The notes beneath the pieces are model-generated. The model made no database searches. It saw only the letters and a list, made by a program, of their open reading frames with translations, and was not told the origin of the DNA. From positions 1 to 35,335 of the forward strand of contig JAJDAH010000181.1 of assembly GCA_029261965.1 (NCBI GenBank): a DNA stretch of 35,335 nucleotides. Reading direction: 5' to 3'. Shown in pieces: positions 2,227 to 34,615 of the stretch. Position 1 is the first letter of the stretch. Every line of letters begins with the position of its first letter. This DNA comes from Polyangiaceae bacterium. Lineage in GTDB: Bacteria > Myxococcota_A > Polyangia > Polyangiales > Polyangiaceae. Position numbers and translations under genes: made by a program.

Positions 2227-5868
<3,642 letters not shown>

Positions 5869-5900
5869 GGCGAATGGCCCCGTTCCGGTTGGCTTCCCCT

Positions 5901-5918
5901 ACTGACGCTGACGTCAGT
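5901..5918. promoter_or_regulatory. Probable TetR-family operator
   Basis: Arms ACTGACG and CGTCAGT (7 bp, perfect) flank CTGA, and the core contains the palindrome TGACGTCA. It sits 33 bases upstream of the activase ATG and just downstream of a TACACT hexamer on the minus strand that could be a -10 box. A repressor bound here would block that promoter. The divergent TetR gene at 6133 is the obvious candidate binder, inferred from position only. Confidence 0.5.
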
Positions 5919-5968
5919 GTATGCCACGGAACTTCGGTAACCGGTGCAGATTGTGCGCCGGACTTCGA

Positions 5969-5986
5969 GTTCTGCCGTGACAGAAC
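5969..5986. promoter_or_regulatory. Second inverted repeat in the divergent promoter region
   Basis: GTTCTG and CAGAAC arms (6 bp) are separated by CCGTGA. The repeat lies midway between the activase start and the TetR start. It could be a second regulator site or part of the TetR promoter. Its sequence differs from the 5901-5918 palindrome, so the same protein need not bind both. Confidence 0.3.
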
Positions 5987-6132
5987 GACCCGAACTGATG
6001 GAAATCCGAGGCGGTCTGGGCCCGTTCGGGGCGCGATGGTGACGTAACGGTACTTCCATGCACAGGGTGGGGATAACTTCTTGAAAACGAGGGGGAGCCC
6101 GCCGTGACGGACGGCGCACGGGTACTCTCGCG

Positions 6133-6807
6133 TTGGTGGCCGCAAAGCGCACATCGAAGAAGAGCCCGTCGAAGCGCAGCCGCAAGGGACTGAGCAAAGA
6201 AGAGCGCCGCGCTCAGATCCTCGCTTCCGCCCGCACGGTCTTCGCCAAGCTCGGCTACCACCACGCGACGATCGACGACATCGTCGCCGAAGCCGGCGTT
6301 GCCCGCGGCACGTTCTACCTCTACTTCGAAGACAAACGCGCCGTCTTCAGCGAGCTCATCGATCGCTACAACTCGCGGATCAACATGGCGATTCTGAGGA
6401 TCGTCACCGACGACCCGAGTCGCACGGTCGAGAACCAAGTCATCGAAAACATTCGGGGGATCTTGACGATTGCCCTCAAAGAACGAGCGATGACGAAGAT
6501 CCTGTTCACCGACGCGCTCGGGGTGGACCCCGACTTCGACCGGAAGCTTCGAGTATTTTACGACGAGCTGGTGCAGGTTCTCACGAACTCACTCGCTGAC
6601 GGGCAAGCGCGCGGCATCGTGCGCGACGGCGAGCCACGGGTGCTCGCGTACCTGAGCATCGGCGCCATCAAGGAGCTGCTCTACCAGGTCGTCACTCTCG
6701 GACTGACCGAAGAGAGCGCGGAAGTACTCACCGAGCAGGTGCACGCGTTCCTGCGTGACGGATACTTGCTCGAGCCGAAAAAAAAGCCGGTCAAGCGCCG
6801 CCGCTAG
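6133..6807 (+). CDS. TetR/AcrR-family transcriptional regulator
   Basis: The product is 224 aa with a Lys/Arg-rich N-terminal tail, then a classic TetR helix-turn-helix (about residues 28-75). The recognition region reads DIVAEAGVARGTFYLYF followed by DKRAVF. The C-terminal ligand-binding half is helical and gives no ligand clue. The start is TTG at 6133 or GTG at 6136, as no ATG lies between there and the HTH. It is divergent from the activase/dehydratase operon, with 264 bases between holding two inverted repeats. TetR proteins next to acyl-CoA genes often sense acyl-CoA or fatty acids, so a CoA-thioester effector is a reasonable guess and no more. The tail ends in a second basic stretch (KKKPVKRRR). 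Confidence 0.88.
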   Translation: MVAAKRTSKKSPSKRSRKGLSKEERRAQILASARTVFAKLGYHHATIDDIVAEAGVARGTFYLYFEDKRAVFSELIDRYNSRINMAILRIVTDDPSRTVENQVIENIRGILTIALKERAMTKILFTDALGVDPDFDRKLRVFYDELVQVLTNSLADGQARGIVRDGEPRVLAYLSIGAIKELLYQVVTLGLTEESAEVLTEQVHAFLRDGYLLEPKKKPVKRRR

Positions 6808-7204
6808 CGCTCGATGGCGGTGGGCGAAAGGTTGCTGCGATACGGCGCCCCGGCGCTCCGGAGGAGGGTGAGGAGGCGGCTGAGAGCCGATGGCGACGCG
6901 CGGGGCAAAGCCAGCGGGTGAGCGAACCGCGTGCCGGGTCGCGACGCGCAATTTCTGCCTGTTTTTCGCAGGGGAATCGCTCTGGGTGCGCAGCCCGCTT
7001 TGCTGCTCCACCGCGAAGCCCGCGCGGATGGCCGATCCGGCAGAGCGCTTCATAAAAAGGCCCCGCCGGCCGTACGTGGGGCTGATATCGTGCCTTCCCC
7101 CCCTCGGGGCCGCCCGGCTCTTTTCTCCCGCGGCGGCCGCGAACCCCAAAGCGCCCTTCGTCCTCGGCTGCCGTCAAGCCGAACCAGGAGCAGTCGAGTA
7201 GCTC
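6808..7204. other. 397-base intergenic region upstream of sucA
   Basis: The region has no convincing gene. The open frames here have atypical composition and no recognisable domain. It should carry the promoter of the sucA-sucB-lpd operon, but I found no clear -35/-10 pair. A GGAG-rich stretch at about 6859-6875 and the short AT-rich TTCATAAAAA at about 7049 are the only visible landmarks. Confidence 0.4.
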
Positions 7205-28821: not shown

Positions 28822-30534
28822 TCACCGGATCTGGCGCTCGACGCCCACTGGCATCAGCGTTCCATCGCTGAGCAATCTCAAGTGCACGTCCACGCGGGGT
28901 GACCGCTCGGGGTCCGTCAGTACGCGCCTCGTCCAGCTGAGCGTGAGGAACGGCTCGCGAACGAGCTCGTCCCGATGGTGTTCAACGAGCCACTTCAGAG
29001 CGCCGCCGAGGTGTGCGCTCGGACGTTTGCTCGAGCTCGCACTCAGACCGAGATCTCGGCCACGTCGGTTCCACCGCAGCGCCCAGCGGTACTCGACGTC
29101 CTCTGAGCGCCGAAGTCCCGCGAGCACTTCGAGGTCGACGAGAGTCACCCGCTGCCCGCCCTCGATGCGCGGCTCGTCGAGCGGCGCCATGACACGAAAT
29201 GCGTGTCGCAGGAGCTTGCTACGTCGGCCGACGAGTGCTCGGGTCACCCACTCGGTCGCTTCTGGCACCGGGTAGCGCCCTTCTTCGACCGCAGCCCGAA
29301 TGTGAGCTGGTGTGATGTGAGCGAGAATCGCCGCCGCCCAGAAGGTGTCGTGAGGGTCTGCCGCGTCGAAAAGCGGATTCGGATAGGTGGGTTTCCAACG
29401 CGGCGGGTCGAACACGTCGGCCTCGAGGTTTCCGACGATCCCCCGGAGCGGCGAGTCGACGTTGTCGTACCAATACGGATCGTGGAATCCAGCGGCGAGC
29501 GTCCGAGTGAAGAGCTCGTTCCAATCGATGTTGTACTTGTAGCCGCCGGCTTTGCCCTTCGGCCCGACGGGATTGCCTCCCAGTGCGGACCCGAAATCTA
29601 TGAGGTTGTGCTTGACGTAGCCGAGCCCGTTTTTTTCGTCGACCTCGATGAACGTATCGAGGTTGTTCGTGGGTTTCGCGTCGGTGTTGTTGATCCACGC
29701 GAAAAAAACCCACAAGCCTCGCAGGCTGCGTCGACGCTCGTGCGGAATCACGTCGTTCGGGTCGTCGAGACGGGTGCCCGTTAGCGTGAAGTTGCCCACC
29801 GGACGCCCGGCGAGGAACTTGCTGAAAATGGCCCGAATCGGTCCTTTGCGGTCGGGCACGATCTTGTCGAGGGACTTCTGAAGCTCGACTTGGTCGAGCG
29901 GGATCTTCCGGTTGAGCTCGTCTTTGGTCTTCGCCTTCGGCGACAGCACGAGCTGGGCGAGGTCGAGCTGACCGATGTAGTTCTCGGGCACGTGGTAGCC
30001 CGCCGCCCACATGAGCTTGGTGCAGATGATCTCGGCCGCCGTCGAAATTGTCGGGTACTTGGGGGGGTCGAACTTGATGACCCACCCCTGCCCGGTTTCA
30101 TCTTCGACGATGAACCCGGGGGTCACGCCCTTGGTCTTGGCGCTCTTGACGATGAGCTTGCCCTTCGGGGGACCGTCGAGAGTGTCGGGGCCCCGACGGA
30201 TTTCCTCCAAGCTCACCGAGCGTCGACCAATCCGGTTCTCGAACCACGTCGAGTTCGGCACCTTCCCGAAGGTGTTCACGTCCTCGGCCGCGGGGCCTCC
30301 GGGTCGTCTCGACAGGTGATAGCCAGGGCTCACCATGCGGCTGAGTTGCACCGTCGATAGCCCGGTGATGTACGGCCACCAGTCGGAGTCCTCCGGTTCT
30401 TCGACGAGTCCGTGCAGTCGCGGCTCGGCGGCGCGTTGGTAAACCGTGTCGTGCGGGGCCTGTTTCCACACAGGAGCACCGCATCCTCCGAGCAGAAGCG
30501 CCAACCCGACGACGAGACCACGTCGACCCAACAT
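28822..30534 (-). CDS. Lipoprotein with kinase-like motifs, function unknown
   Basis: The product is 570 aa. The signal peptide ends in LGGC (C18 lipidated). I do not recognise a named family, but the core follows a protein- or lipid-kinase-like order. A beta3-like VIKFDPP has K154, a helix-C-like AAEIICTKL has E168, a catalytic-loop-like NNTDAKPTNN has D285 and N290/N291, and HNLIDFGSALGG has a DFG at 313-315. The helix before the loop (LRGLWVFFAWI) also fits. Similar N-T-D...N and DFG arrangements occur in HipA, PI4-kinase II and Fam20 kinases. The first 120 residues and the last 180 are unassigned. The ATG at 30532-30534 shares one base with the upstream barrel gene's stop. It is the last gene of the folP operon. 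Confidence 0.82.
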   Translation of the reverse strand: MLGRRGLVVGLALLLGGCGAPVWKQAPHDTVYQRAAEPRLHGLVEEPEDSDWWPYITGLSTVQLSRMVSPGYHLSRRPGGPAAEDVNTFGKVPNSTWFENRIGRRSVSLEEIRRGPDTLDGPPKGKLIVKSAKTKGVTPGFIVEDETGQGWVIKFDPPKYPTISTAAEIICTKLMWAAGYHVPENYIGQLDLAQLVLSPKAKTKDELNRKIPLDQVELQKSLDKIVPDRKGPIRAIFSKFLAGRPVGNFTLTGTRLDDPNDVIPHERRRSLRGLWVFFAWINNTDAKPTNNLDTFIEVDEKNGLGYVKHNLIDFGSALGGNPVGPKGKAGGYKYNIDWNELFTRTLAAGFHDPYWYDNVDSPLRGIVGNLEADVFDPPRWKPTYPNPLFDAADPHDTFWAAAILAHITPAHIRAAVEEGRYPVPEATEWVTRALVGRRSKLLRHAFRVMAPLDEPRIEGGQRVTLVDLEVLAGLRRSEDVEYRWALRWNRRGRDLGLSASSSKRPSAHLGGALKWLVEHHRDELVREPFLTLSWTRRVLTDPERSPRVDVHLRLLSDGTLMPVGVERQIR

Positions 30535-31988
30535 CAGAACGACTCGTTCATGCTGAAGACCATTTGGGTTCCCTCGGGAGAAAACGCGATCTGAAAACGA
30601 AATGCCATCGCCTTCGACGTCGCTGCACGCAAGCCAAAGCCTGCTGAGCGTTGGATGCGACCTTCGAAGAGATCGGAGTACGCGCTGGCAACTCGGCCGA
30701 TGTCAGCGAACACCGTGCCCGAAGCCGTGAGACTGCCCGACCCGACGTCGAGAACGGGGTAGCGGTACTCGGCGGTGCCCCAAAACGCGGTTTGATCCTG
30801 AAAGCGGCGCTTGACGTAGCCGCGTAACCGGCTCGTTCCGCCGATCGCAATGTGATAGTGGAGCGGGATCTCGTCGCTCGGGCTGATCTCGCTGACCGCC
30901 CCTTGGCTCACCGAGAGCACCAGAACGCGCCGGTTCGGGGCGAGCGGAATGAACACGGCGGCCGTTCCGACCCCGCGCACGGCGCTCAGCCCGTTGCCAT
31001 CCACGTCTTTGGTGGCGTCGAGCTTGAGCTTGAACAAGGCGCCGCGTGTCGTACGTCCGGGCGTGTCGCGCATGTCGTACGAAAAGGACGTCATGCCTTC
31101 GACGTAGTTCGTCGTGAGACCAAAACCCGGCGGCGGCGGGATGATGTCGCCGGTCGCCGCCACCGCGGGAGTCTCTTCGGTCGCGACTCCTGGTTCGAGA
31201 GATGCGCGGCGATACCCGACCTTGTACTTGCTGCCGAAACCCGTGCTCTTCTTCGTCGCCTTGGCGACGGTGTCCCCCTGGAGCGCCACCTTTACCGTCT
31301 GAGCCTCGAGAAACCGGCGCTCGCTCTCGATGGTGTCGTTTCCGATGCCAAAAAACCTTCGGTTCTGGTCGAGCGAGTAGCCGACACGGACACCGATTCT
31401 TCGATCGATCCGCCGGAATCGCTTCGACATGCCCGTCCCGACGCCGTGGTCGAGATTGCGTTTGATGTTGCCCCCGACATCGAAGTTCTCGCCGTGGCCG
31501 AAGATGTCGGAGTGCGAATAGCGCGCGCCCACGCCGACGCCGTCTTTCGTCAGAATGATCAACGTCGGCAGAAACAAGGATGTGCCCTCCTCGTTCGTCA
31601 GTGCGCGCTCGACCCGTCTATCGAGGCGAACATCTTCCGCCCACACGAGCAGGGGCAGTAGCGGGCTCATCGCCAGCCGGCTCGCCATCTCCGGCAATCG
31701 GAGAATCGTCCAGTGTCCGGTGAATCGTCTCTCTCGCTGCGACCACTGCTCGGTTCGTAGCGAGGCGCCAGCAGGGCTCACCCCATCGGACGGTGCCGAA
31801 ACGACCGGGCTCGGCCGCTCGGTGGCGGTGGGTTCCGAAGCGTCAGGAGCCACTTCGACCGGGGCCGCTTCCGTTTGCGACGGCGGCGGATCGACGAGCT
31901 CGACGTCGGGTTGTGCGCCCGCAGTCGGGGCGGCGAACATCGCGAACGCGACGAGCGCGATCGCCGAGCGATCCATCCGCGCCCTCAC
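30534..31988 (-). CDS. Omp85/BamA-TamA-like outer-membrane beta-barrel protein
   Basis: The product is 484 aa. Its signal peptide is cleaved near AGA-QP (residue 25), followed by a Pro/Thr/Ser-rich linker (about 26-85) and about 350 residues of alternating beta strands. GTSRLRGYVKRRF fits the conserved RGF/RGY loop of Omp85 surface-antigen barrels, and the chain ends in Phe (MNESF), the usual last residue of outer-membrane barrels. There is no clear POTRA repeat, so it is a short Omp85-like form. The start is GTG at 31988, overlapping the folP stop in a GTGA arrangement; ATG 31976 is an alternative. It is coupled on both sides, to folP upstream and to the kinase-like lipoprotein downstream. 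Its substrate is unknown. Confidence 0.85.
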   Translation of the reverse strand: MRARMDRSAIALVAFAMFAAPTAGAQPDVELVDPPPSQTEAAPVEVAPDASEPTATERPSPVVSAPSDGVSPAGASLRTEQWSQRERRFTGHWTILRLPEMASRLAMSPLLPLLVWAEDVRLDRRVERALTNEEGTSLFLPTLIILTKDGVGVGARYSHSDIFGHGENFDVGGNIKRNLDHGVGTGMSKRFRRIDRRIGVRVGYSLDQNRRFFGIGNDTIESERRFLEAQTVKVALQGDTVAKATKKSTGFGSKYKVGYRRASLEPGVATEETPAVAATGDIIPPPPGFGLTTNYVEGMTSFSYDMRDTPGRTTRGALFKLKLDATKDVDGNGLSAVRGVGTAAVFIPLAPNRRVLVLSVSQGAVSEISPSDEIPLHYHIAIGGTSRLRGYVKRRFQDQTAFWGTAEYRYPVLDVGSGSLTASGTVFADIGRVASAYSDLFEGRIQRSAGFGLRAATSKAMAFRFQIAFSPEGTQMVFSMNESF

Positions 31989-32806
31989 CCTGCCGCCTCG
32001 TGACGCTCTGCATGAACGGCGTTCGTGATTCGGAGCGCGTCTTTCAGGGCGCGAGCGTCGTGGGTTCGGATGTATTCGGCGCCGTGCGCCGCCGCGTGAA
32101 GCTCTGCCGCCAATCCGGCAGCACCGCGCGCGTCCGTGCCGCGGCCGGTGATGCTGCCGAGGAACGACTTTCGCGACACCGAGATCAGCAACGGGAGCGA
32201 AAATCGATCTCGAAGCTCTTCGAGGTTCGCCAGCACCCGCAACGACGGTTCGGGATTCTTGCCCAAGAAGAACCCCATACCGGGATCGAGGATCAGACGC
32301 TCGCGCGCGACGCCCGCTCCTACCAGCTCCGCAACTCGCGCATCGAAAAAGTCGACGATGCGAGCCAGGATCTCCGAGGCGTCGCTATCCTCGCGGGTGG
32401 CGTTTCCGCGCTTCTGAACCTTGTGCATCACGACGAGCTGGCATTCTGCCGACGCCAGCACGGCGTGCATGTCGCGCTCGGGGAAACCTTCGATGTCGTT
32501 GATGATGTTTATCCCGCGCCCGACGCAGTACCGCTGCGTCTCCGGGCGCCAGGTATCGACGCTCAGGTTGAGCCCCTCGCCCTCCAGCGCCGAAATCACG
32601 GGGTCGATGCGACGAATTTCTTCCTCGGCGGACACTTCGGCCGCGTCTGGATGACTCGACGCCGGACCGAGCTCGACGACGTCGGCGCCGTCGGCGGCGA
32701 GTCGGCGTGCGTGGGCCGTCGCTTCGCGGGGATCGAGAAAGCGGCCCCCATCGGAGAACGAGTCGGCGGTAACGTTCACGATGCCGATAATCTTCGGCAG
32801 AAGCAT
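31985..32806 (-). CDS. folP: Dihydropteroate synthase, Sul1/Sul2-like type
   Basis: The product is a 273-aa TIM-barrel enzyme joining p-aminobenzoate to the pterin diphosphate in folate synthesis. Several segments read like Sul1/Sul2 sulfonamide-resistance enzymes rather than ordinary FolP: LGPASSHPDAAEVS instead of GGESTRPG, RPETQRY, NDIEGFP, LVVMHKVQKRGNATR, DPGMGFFLG (174-182, with F179/F180), SVSRKSFLG, and AAELHAAAHGAEYIRTH. The ordinary DPGIGFGK form is absent. I chose ATG 32804-32806 because MLLPKIIGIVNVT matches the length of the Sul2 N terminus; a GTG at 32836 is possible. No integron, IS or resistance gene is near and base composition matches its neighbours, so it is probably a resident gene. 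It is first of a three-gene overlapping operon. Confidence 0.93.
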   Translation of the reverse strand: MLLPKIIGIVNVTADSFSDGGRFLDPREATAHARRLAADGADVVELGPASSHPDAAEVSAEEEIRRIDPVISALEGEGLNLSVDTWRPETQRYCVGRGINIINDIEGFPERDMHAVLASAECQLVVMHKVQKRGNATREDSDASEILARIVDFFDARVAELVGAGVARERLILDPGMGFFLGKNPEPSLRVLANLEELRDRFSLPLLISVSRKSFLGSITGRGTDARGAAGLAAELHAAAHGAEYIRTHDARALKDALRITNAVHAERHEAAG

Positions 32807-32921
32807 GGCGAAATCCGAACATAGCAGCTGCTCCACCGCTGCCGCCGCTGTGACCGCGCTTCAGTAAGTATTTTTCGGTCCGAGTTGACGCAGGATCGCG
32901 CCTCCCGTTCGATCACCGTGG

Positions 32922-33283: not shown

Positions 33284-34615
33284 CTAACTACGGCGACGGG
33301 CTTCGAGGACTCGAAGCTGTTGTTCCGCGTCGCGGATCGTGGAGTCGAAGTGCACCGCGGCACGAAACGATCGGCGCGCCCCGGCCTCGTCGCCGGACGC
33401 CAAGAGCAAGTGCGCCTTGACGTAGTGGGCGTACGCCATTTCGTTGTCCTCTCGCACGGCTTTGACCGCGAGGTCGTCGAGGTGAGCCTTCAGCGCGTCG
33501 CGTTCGGGCTGGGTCTGCGCCGTCCGGTACTCCGCCCAGGTCGCACAGAGGTTGTACTCGACGGCGTCGGACCGAAGCTCACGCGCCTTGACGAGATCCT
33601 TGACCGCTTTGGCGTGCAGCCCTTGGGCGAGCGCGGCCTTGCCCCGCTGAAACAAGGACTCGGCACGGAGCTGCGATTTTCTTACGTCGACCGGCGGAGG
33701 CATCGAGGGCCGCACCGACGGCCTTTCGCCGGGTCTCACCTTCGGTTCCGCTCGGTGCTCGACCTTGACGGGCTCGACCGGCGGCGGTGGCGGCGGATCC
33801 GCGGTGGCAAGAATGTTCGACTTCACAGCCACACTCGTCGCGTTCATCGCACGCATCTGCACGCTGTTGACCTGGCGCTGGTCGTTCAGATCCAGGACGT
33901 CGTTCAGAGCCAACGCGGTGATCAACTGCGCCGCGTGCAGCGGATCGAGACTCGACGAGGCCAAGATCCTGTCGACGCTCATGCGACCGTTGATGCTCTC
34001 GACGAACTTGGTTTCGTTCTGTTTCAGCTTGAACCGCGCCGCCACTTCGAGTGCCGCCCCGTGCACCGTCGGAAACGTGTGGCGGATCCCTCGGAGGACC
34101 GCCTCGGTTCTTTCATAGTCGTAGAATCGGCGCACCGCGTGCGCGACGAGCGGCGCCACGTCGAGGGGGTAATGCGGAACTTCGTCGAGCGCCTCGGTGA
34201 TGGGCTTGAAGTCGCATTCGGCATCCGCCCACTGAAAGCACCGAAGCACTTTCTGGCGAACCTGCTCTCCGAGGGCCGCGTTGACCTGGTCGAGGGAGAG
34301 GAAACCGAGCTCGACCGCCATCTCGCCGAATCGCAGAGTCTCGTTGTCGACCACCTCGTCCGTCATTCGGGTGATGATGTCCATGTACTGGGCTTCGCTA
34401 ATCAGTCCGTCGCGAACGAGCACGCGGCCGAGGGCCTCGTGCAGCGACCCTTCTTCTGCAAATACCGGCACGCCGTGCATGAAGTAGACAAAGGTCCCCA
34501 CTCCGTGGGCCTGAACTTCGAGTACGCCGGTTCTCCGATACCGGTGCACGAGCAGCAGCCGCTCGAGAAAGGTCGAGCCGACCGCAGACATCTCCTTGGG
34601 CTCAATGGGACTCAT
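33284..34615 (-). CDS. DUF4388/PATAN-like protein with TPR-type C terminus
   Basis: The product is 443 aa with no signal peptide. The N-terminal 90 residues match the DUF4388/PATAN pattern common in Deltaproteobacteria: GVLEVQAHGVGTFVYFMHGVP, an Ala/Glu-rich loop, then LVRDGLISEAQY. A second helical region (about 105-260) has LRFGEMAVELGFLSLDQVNAALGEQ. A Pro-rich linker (about 275-310) leads to a TPR-like helical repeat region (about 315-440; AESLFQRGKAALAQG, ARELRSDAVEYNL, YAHYVKAHLLLASGDEAGA). Such proteins are thought to be adaptors in signalling or gliding-type regulation; the partner is unknown. The ATG at 34613-34615 is used. It is divergent from the M28 peptidase gene. Confidence 0.82.
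   Translation of the reverse strand: MSPIEPKEMSAVGSTFLERLLLVHRYRRTGVLEVQAHGVGTFVYFMHGVPVFAEEGSLHEALGRVLVRDGLISEAQYMDIITRMTDEVVDNETLRFGEMAVELGFLSLDQVNAALGEQVRQKVLRCFQWADAECDFKPITEALDEVPHYPLDVAPLVAHAVRRFYDYERTEAVLRGIRHTFPTVHGAALEVAARFKLKQNETKFVESINGRMSVDRILASSSLDPLHAAQLITALALNDVLDLNDQRQVNSVQMRAMNATSVAVKSNILATADPPPPPPVEPVKVEHRAEPKVRPGERPSVRPSMPPPVDVRKSQLRAESLFQRGKAALAQGLHAKAVKDLVKARELRSDAVEYNLCATWAEYRTAQTQPERDALKAHLDDLAVKAVREDNEMAYAHYVKAHLLLASGDEAGARRSFRAAVHFDSTIRDAEQQLRVLEARRRS

Follow-up and report, generated by a model that had tools for sequence, protein, structure and literature searches.

We analyzed a 35,335-nt stretch of DNA from a Polyangiaceae bacterium (contig JAJDAH010000181.1 of assembly GCA_029261965.1), hereafter called the window, which carries a chromosomal gene for a dihydropteroate synthase (DHPS) resembling the products of the mobile sulfonamide-resistance genes sul1, sul2, and sul3. 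By its family, the enzyme would join p-aminobenzoate (pABA) to dihydropterin pyrophosphate for folate synthesis. The gene and its resistance signature lie as follows:

31985..32806, minus strand: Sul-type DHPS gene, 273 aa from the ATG at 32806
32261..32287, minus strand: DPGMGFFLG codons, residues 174-182 counted from that ATG, with the two-residue Sul insertion and M177, F179, and L181

An in-frame GTG at 32836 offers an alternative start (open reading frame (ORF) 31985-32836, minus strand, 283 aa). No clear Shine-Dalgarno sequence was seen by eye at either the GTG at 32836 or the ATG at 32806, and the ATG lies within two alignment columns of the Sul2 and Sul3 starts. The Pfam family Pterin_bind spans its full domain in the protein (227.8 bits, positions 1-244 of 244). 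In a phmmer search of the Protein Data Bank (PDB), the top five distinct matches were Sul2 (304 bits, E = 1e-89), three Sul3 constructs (301 bits, E = 6e-89 for the best), and Sul1 (259 bits, E = 5e-76), compared with 168 bits (E = 3e-48) for the best ordinary FolP and 162 bits for E. coli FolP, and the likeness to Sul extended over the whole length of the protein. Identity in the alignment is 57% to Sul2, 52% to Sul3, and 48% to Sul1. The NCBIfam scores all fell below the respective cut-offs for Sul1 (265.5 against 600 bits), Sul2 (325.2 against 575), and Sul3 (305.5 against 475), while the generic DHPS, E. coli-type FolP, and Sul4 models gave 271, 184, and 119 bits. Since every NCBIfam 'exception' cut-off for Sul1-4 is missed, the DHPS is a relative of the named Sul genes and not an allele of them.

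A reading of the sequence alone (hereafter the sequence-only reading) had assigned the protein to the Sul type, and not to ordinary FolP, from a series of shared peptides. These peptides are all present in the translation, and the phmmer, NCBIfam, and tree results agree with the assignment. For the trees, we scanned 84,980 species genomes, which gave 478 candidates, and kept the best 80 by likeness to the window protein. The first tree, with 108 rows, took 67 of these 80 loci (13 near-duplicates or surplus sequences were omitted), 15 of 23 Sul-type loci from the host's phylum, 10 of 29 ordinary FolPs from its family, and 10 of 19 other ordinary FolPs, and included the window protein, Sul1-3, L169, and L170. 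Sul-type and ordinary sequences were split in it with a support of 100. When the motif columns were removed in a second tree of 69 rows (ordinary sequences L020 and L127, the latter on a long branch, were omitted), the 49 Sul-type rows were split from the 20 ordinary rows with 100/100 support. The window DHPS stood on the Sul side and thus lies inside the clade that holds Sul1-3, as the sequence-only reading would have it.

At the signature, the window DHPS reads DPGMGFFLGK, where the aligned ordinary FolPs have DPGLGF--AK, DPGxGF--GK, or a similar segment; by both alignment and codons, M177, F179, and L181 carry the same numbers as in Sul2. The two-residue insertion is present in the window DHPS, in all 80 loci kept from the species-genome scan, and in 23 of 23 phylum Sul-type loci, whereas none of 29 ordinary FolPs of the family and none of 19 further ordinary sequences has it. 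The complete Met/Phe/Leu set occurs in the window DHPS, in 60 of the 80 scan loci, and in 22 of the 23 phylum loci; the Phe position is Tyr in 13 and Asn in one of the 80. The DPGMGFF segment had been proposed as the mark of a Sul enzyme. This holds for the insertion and the Met/Phe/Leu set and fails for GFF by itself: these three residues do not identify a Sul enzyme on their own, since L006 and L011, both ordinary FolPs of the family, read DPGLGFFK without the insertion. Judging from the aligned sequences, it is the two-residue insertion, not the bare GFF, that marks the Sul type. A search for bare GFF overcounts Sul-like enzymes, as these two FolPs illustrate; database DHPSs with Gly-Phe-Phe are reported to number hundreds (PMC10328974). 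We also observed two enzymes that keep the insertion and have the key Phe replaced, by Asn in Sporomusa ovata (L090) and by Leu in a relative from the host's phylum (L168), and these are natural tests of the weight that this residue carries.

The Phe of Sul1-3 (F178, F179, and F177, respectively) is reported to clash with the sulfonamide group, and its replacement by Gly to restore sensitivity; the adjacent Leu also contributes, and a conserved Met packs against it (PMC10328974). The AlphaFold model of the window DHPS, made from an input alignment with 28 rows of the 35 sequences first chosen (one span contained a stop, and seven rows were dropped), has a mean predicted local distance difference test score (pLDDT) of 92.4 and a four-residue helix at 178-181 (GFFL). 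Foldseek, whose ranking draws on sequence as well as fold, returned Sul1-3 chains for all of the top 15 PDB chains, the nearest being Sul3 (8scd, 1.0 Å) and Sul2 (7s2k_A, 1.2 Å); the distances of the other Sul chains range from 1.2 to 4.7 Å. The model is Sul-like in this comparison. On this model, F179 would sit on the lengthened alpha-6 helix, backed by M177 and L181, and would sterically bar para-substituted anilines bulkier than pABA, including sulfonamides. The enzyme is therefore probably intrinsically resistant.

Single copy and the empty folP locus

The host assembly (9.59 Mb in 480 contigs, 96.4% complete, 3.5% contamination) contains two matches to Pterin_bind, the window DHPS and a methionine synthase. 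The sequence-only reading had called for a check on a second, ordinary folP, and none was found in the host genome with this family. Across the family, a DHPS match is present in 91 of 98 genomes (48 genera), and the Sul type occurs in the host only; the matches in the other 90 genomes score as ordinary FolP (157 bits or less, the best at 37% identity). The ordinary family FolPs (L004-L032) share, by family, their reaction and fold with the window DHPS, and differ from it in having 31-38% identity in the tabulated matches (30-40% over all 90), no insertion, and cdaA in the flank. Specifically, the 1.5 kb flanking folP include cdaA in each of the 29 family loci read and a PgpH-like gene in 19 of them. 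The window DHPS gene is not next to cdaA, and its neighbors differ from those of the family folP loci.

The host's own cdaA locus (C288, L176) is assembled and contains genes for a 7TM-HD (PgpH-like), a DAC/CdaA, and a YbbR (CdaR-like) protein in the same order as in two family genomes, G020 and G064, with several further neighbors in common; the PgpH-, CdaA-, and YbbR-type genes are 57-67% identical to those of G020. In place of folP there are 317 bp. A tblastn search with the 29 family FolPs against a 600-bp stretch of this locus revealed no folP remnant (best E = 0.06 among the matches listed). The empty PgpH-cdaA locus is direct evidence that the native folP was lost. Since folP is gone from the cdaA locus and the Sul-type gene lies elsewhere, the Sul-type enzyme displaced the native one. 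Natural Sul-like enzymes are already known, and the visible replacement of the native folP is what the window adds to them.

Around the Sul-type gene, the window contains the following genes:

30534..31988, minus strand: Omp85-superfamily gene; its GTG start and the DHPS stop share 4 nt (GTGA)
28822..30534, minus strand: gene for a 570-aa protein with no Pfam family, forming a pair with the Omp85 gene
33284..34615, minus strand: DUF4388 protein gene, with a homologue near the Omp85/570-aa pair in family genome G059

Given the 4-nt overlap, the DHPS and Omp85 genes probably form one operon. Homologues of the Omp85 and 570-aa genes (22-25% and 36-37% identity, respectively) adjoin each other without a DHPS gene in family genomes G059 and G020. 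With 22% identity and no Pfam family at 1e-5, the Omp85 counterpart in G059 is a weak match; a DUF4388 homologue (39%) lies on the same stretch of that genome. For the 570-aa gene, the nearest paralogue is found in the host genome itself (C418, 47%), and relatives in the family reach at most 39% over most of the length. Because G059 shares these neighbors, the contig is most likely a genuine piece of a family chromosome, and the Sul-type gene was most likely inserted ahead of the resident Omp85/570-aa pair.

The sequence-only reading had remarked that nothing mobile surrounds the gene and that its base composition is local, and both remarks stand. The window has no tRNA, and no integrase, transposase, or phage Pfam family was found among the 20 window proteins scanned, which come from the larger ORFs. 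The best 5000 plasmid records in a plasmid search were all less than 60% identical to the DHPS. Compared with the 17 other called window genes of at least 200 aa, the DHPS gene gives no signal of foreign composition (GC 0.650 against 0.637 ± 0.014, GC at third codon positions (GC3) 0.770 against 0.808 ± 0.026; |z| ≤ 1.44).

Origin of the gene and its relation to mobile sul genes

We consider it very probable that the sole DHPS of the host is a Sul-type enzyme which an ancestor gained, and that the native folP was lost afterwards. The ancestor would have received the gene most likely by horizontal transfer from another bearer of the Sul type. The gene would then have settled in front of the Omp85/570-aa pair, and the ordinary folP in the conserved PgpH-folP-cdaA-cdaR locus would subsequently have been lost cleanly.

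Among the other explanations, descent from a Myxococcota ancestor that had both enzymes, with the host lineage keeping the Sul type and the rest of the family keeping folP, has the most in its favor. A search of 377 genomes of the host's phylum found 26, including the host, at E 1e-50; two of these (G171 and G185) lack the insertion, which leaves 24 with the Sul type, spread over six sampled families. Moreover, a constraint that holds all Myxococcota Sul-types of the tree together was not rejected (p value of the approximately unbiased test, p-AU, 0.094). The Sul type is nevertheless present in only one of the 91 family genomes with a DHPS match (98 searched), so that vertical descent needs many independent losses, and we regard it as improbable. 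Contamination, that is, a contig from another organism in the draft assembly, is suggested by the 480 contigs, the 3.5% contamination, and the lack of a congener in the set. This explanation is very improbable in view of the paralogue of the 570-aa gene in the same genome and its next relatives in the family, the neighboring Omp85/570-aa pair and DUF4388 homologues in G059, and an assembly in which no other DHPS was found and the native locus is assembled yet empty.

The remaining two explanations start from the likeness to Sul itself. If the gene were a recently mobilized sul gene taken up under drug pressure, a Sul-like DHPS would be expected, and sul genes are abundant in polluted environments. 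The plasmid records below 60% identity, the absence of a mobile-element family among the 20 window proteins, a composition that matches the window, and a long branch leave this explanation next to no credibility. The native FolP could also have become Sul-like by convergent change around the DPGMGFF segment, given that insertions in the alpha-6 loop arise readily, with Phe-Gly reported in E. coli under selection and Ser-Gly in resistant Neisseria meningitidis (PMC10328974). Convergence is refuted, under the model used, by the tree without motif columns, which keeps the 100/100 split; as the Sul likeness runs over the full length and the native folP locus is empty, we assign it a negligible probability.

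Several points weigh against the gain of a Sul-type gene followed by the loss of folP. The host genome is a 480-contig draft at 96.4% completeness and the sole genome of its genus in the set, and 7 of the 98 family genomes have no DHPS match at E 1e-15. The gene shows no foreign base composition. In both trees, the window DHPS stands alone on a branch of 0.58-0.64 and in no starred subgroup, and the sequences nearest to it among those found, L103 and L042, are about 60% identical. L042 is classed as Myxococcota, and its genome appears to be G448 of the host's phylum, judging by a shared contig number and an overlapping position. Grouping it with the Actinomycetota (p-AU 0.385) was no more rejected than grouping it with the Myxococcota Sul-types. 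Given the isolated branch and these unrejected groupings, the gene tree singles out no donor and allows vertical inheritance with losses elsewhere, which the distribution makes unlikely. As to function, both catalysis and the exclusion of sulfonamides are what we infer from sequence and model, and the fold alone separates the two types poorly in Foldseek, where certain FolP chains of E. coli and Y. pestis come as near to the model as 1.8-2.0 Å rmsd and some Sul chains are 3-4.7 Å away. We also observed that a record titled as a Klebsiella pneumoniae metagenome-assembled genome (MAG; L062) has a Sul-type DHPS that groups, with weak support, with sequences of Myxococcota and Planctomycetota; this record is probably a mislabeled or mixed MAG.

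Compared with Sul2, Sul3, and Sul1, the window DHPS falls in the same clade, has the same two-residue insertion and M177/F179/L181, and finds its best fold matches among them. It differs from these enzymes in being chromosomal and single-copy, with no mobile element recognized and 57, 52, and 48% identity. The origin of sul1 and sul2 has been traced to the Rhodobiaceae and that of sul3 to the Leptospiraceae, and the corresponding chromosomal enzymes (FolP*) of Parvibaculum lavamentivorans and Leptospira interrogans are reported to raise the sulfamethoxazole minimum inhibitory concentration of E. coli from 8 to >512 and 512 mg/L, respectively (Sanchez-Osuna et al., 2019; PMC6335563). The window DHPS resembles the Rhodobiaceae and Leptospiraceae enzymes described there as a chromosomal DHPS with the Sul motif. 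In contrast to them, it belongs to the Myxococcota, has an Omp85-like neighbor instead of glmM or the Leptospiraceae arrangement, and comes with a visibly empty folP locus. A search of the open-licence literature gave no publication on a Myxococcota FolP* among the matches listed. Three non-mobile DHPSs from forest soil (SEW2, SEW5, and AEW9) are reported to confer sulfonamide resistance in E. coli, and the nearest match given for SEW2 is a putative DHPS of a Deltaproteobacterium; unlike the window gene, they are described as metagenome clones only (Willms et al., 2019; PMC6416219). Sul4 is a mobile resistant DHPS of Chloroflexota type, and its reported hosts include Myxococcota MAGs from sludge (PMC12772301). 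It is reported without the two-residue insertion (PMC6335563), unlike the window DHPS, and the Sul4 model gives the window DHPS 119 bits only.

The sequence-only reading had offered two descriptions of the enzyme. The first, a relative of the pool from which the mobile sul genes came, holds in the broad sense of a common clade; identity to mobile Sul is at most 57%, and other sequences are nearer. Within our set, the nearest to Sul2 is the Parvibaculum MAG E19 (L049, 80.6%). The nearest to Sul3 is the water-buffalo rumen MAG RGIG8297 (L037, labeled Alphaproteobacteria, 80.9%), followed by two Bacteroidota-labeled MAGs (72 and 69%), with the single Leptospirales sequence of the set at 56%; because the set was picked by likeness to the window protein and not to Sul3, nearer Leptospiraceae sequences may be missing from it. 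The second description, an intrinsically resistant native enzyme, is supported in that the gene is chromosomal, the only DHPS found, and probably a source of intrinsic resistance; it misses that the enzyme is a replacement, the family folP locus being present but empty.

Distribution of the Sul type and a possible natural role

The record titles of the best 80 of the 478 loci span nine phyla. They include Alphaproteobacteria and other Pseudomonadota, Myxococcota, Spirochaetota, Actinomycetota, Bacillota (Negativicutes), and Bacteroidota, as well as single MAGs, which may be mixed, titled Planctomycetota, Acidobacteriota, and Binatota. We counted DHPS copies, as matches over the family cut-off, in 40 of the 80 carrier genomes. 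The Sul type is the only DHPS in 21 of them, a status that is weaker in many carriers because they are draft MAGs; it is one of two in six (Paenimyroides, two MAGs with Bacteroidota or Chlorobi titles, Sporomusa, Propionispora, and Treponema). The remaining 13 genomes, which are all Actinomycetota, have three or four DHPSs each.

We observed a unit of about 1.3 kb common to five genomes titled as Bacteroidota groups or Chlorobi (L096, at 5815-7117, L085, L093, L095, and L099). Its DNA is 98.65-100% identical among the five, with unrelated flanks, and it encodes a Sul-type DHPS about 60% identical to Sul3, which is an extra DHPS in the three genomes examined (L085, L093, and L096). The unit starts with GTTGGGC and ends with GCCCAAC...GTTA, the inverted arms matching, and by these motifs it resembles an integron gene cassette. 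In Paenimyroides aquimaris (L085), the unit comes after Tet(X), AadS, and a gene resembling AAC(3)-I that scores below its cut-off. A near-match search of the unit against plasmids gave no match, and a search against Rfam gave only a sub-threshold CRISPR-repeat match.

Four of the 13 actinomycete loci (L092, L044, L105, and L083) have a gene for a fused aminodeoxychorismate synthase no more than about 7.5 kb from the Sul-type gene. Two of the four fused synthases were scanned and score above the NCBIfam PabB cut-off, and the remaining pair show 62 and 47% identity to one of these two. Two of these loci (L105 and L083) also have a chorismate-mutase-like gene (Pfam CM_2 in L105) and a prephenate-dehydrogenase-like gene (below the NCBIfam cut-off) nearby; such genes occur in p-aminophenylalanine pathways. 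Using a neighbor criterion chosen after seeing the loci, we found at least one of these three genes within 6 kb on either side in 4 of 13 Sul-type loci. For comparison, we took 26 control stretches surrounding the ordinary FolP genes of these 13 genomes, two of the stretches being only 5.4 and 6.5 kb long, and none contained any of the three genes (Fisher p = 0.009). A search for further Sul-type carriers found none in 395 genomes across the Actinomycetota at E 1e-60, none beyond the two known carriers in 394 genomes of one actinomycete family, and one new carrier besides two known before in 298 genomes of another. The probe genes are all absent from the 8-kb contig of the new carrier. The tally for the association is thus 4 of 13 loci in the original set, from which the idea came, and 0 of 1 in the newly searched genomes. 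In the actinomycete clusters L257, L258, L259, and L260, a fused aminodeoxychorismate synthase accompanies the Sul-type DHPS, and two of these clusters also contain PapB/PapC-like genes. In Streptacidiphilus jiangxiensis (L261:7049-14527), we observed a further DHPS together with Mur-ligase/FolC-like, GTP cyclohydrolase I, and FolB genes, and this second folate-like set lies about 64 kb from the Sul-type gene on the same contig.

Para-substituted anilines resemble pABA and sulfonamides, so that a Sul-type enzyme could protect a producer of such compounds, a hypothesis that comes from the 4 of 13 loci. Natural para-substituted anilines may be made, for example, from 4-amino-4-deoxychorismate in actinomycetes, and sulfonamide resistance would then be a side effect that predates the drugs. 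More broadly, the Sul type might be an ancient, travelling form of self-protection against these compounds, appearing as a cluster extra in actinomycetes, in cassette-like form in Bacteroidota, and as the displacer of folP in our host. We put this forward tentatively and think it rather unlikely; in particular, the actinomycete enzymes have Tyr for the key Phe in 12 of 13 cases and Leu for the Met in all 13.

Sulfonamides are synthetic compounds, which raises the question of why fully equipped resistant enzymes preceded them. The survey widens the chromosomal Sul-type pool well past the Rhodobiaceae and Leptospiraceae, to which the sul genes had been traced, and the clusters in actinomycetes hint at what a natural selective agent might be. 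The case in the window is a real, well-supported, and unusually clear gene displacement by a known kind of enzyme. The clean replacement of folP indicates that a Sul-type DHPS can act as a stand-alone housekeeping enzyme and that such enzymes can pass from one lineage to another without any sign of selection by drugs.

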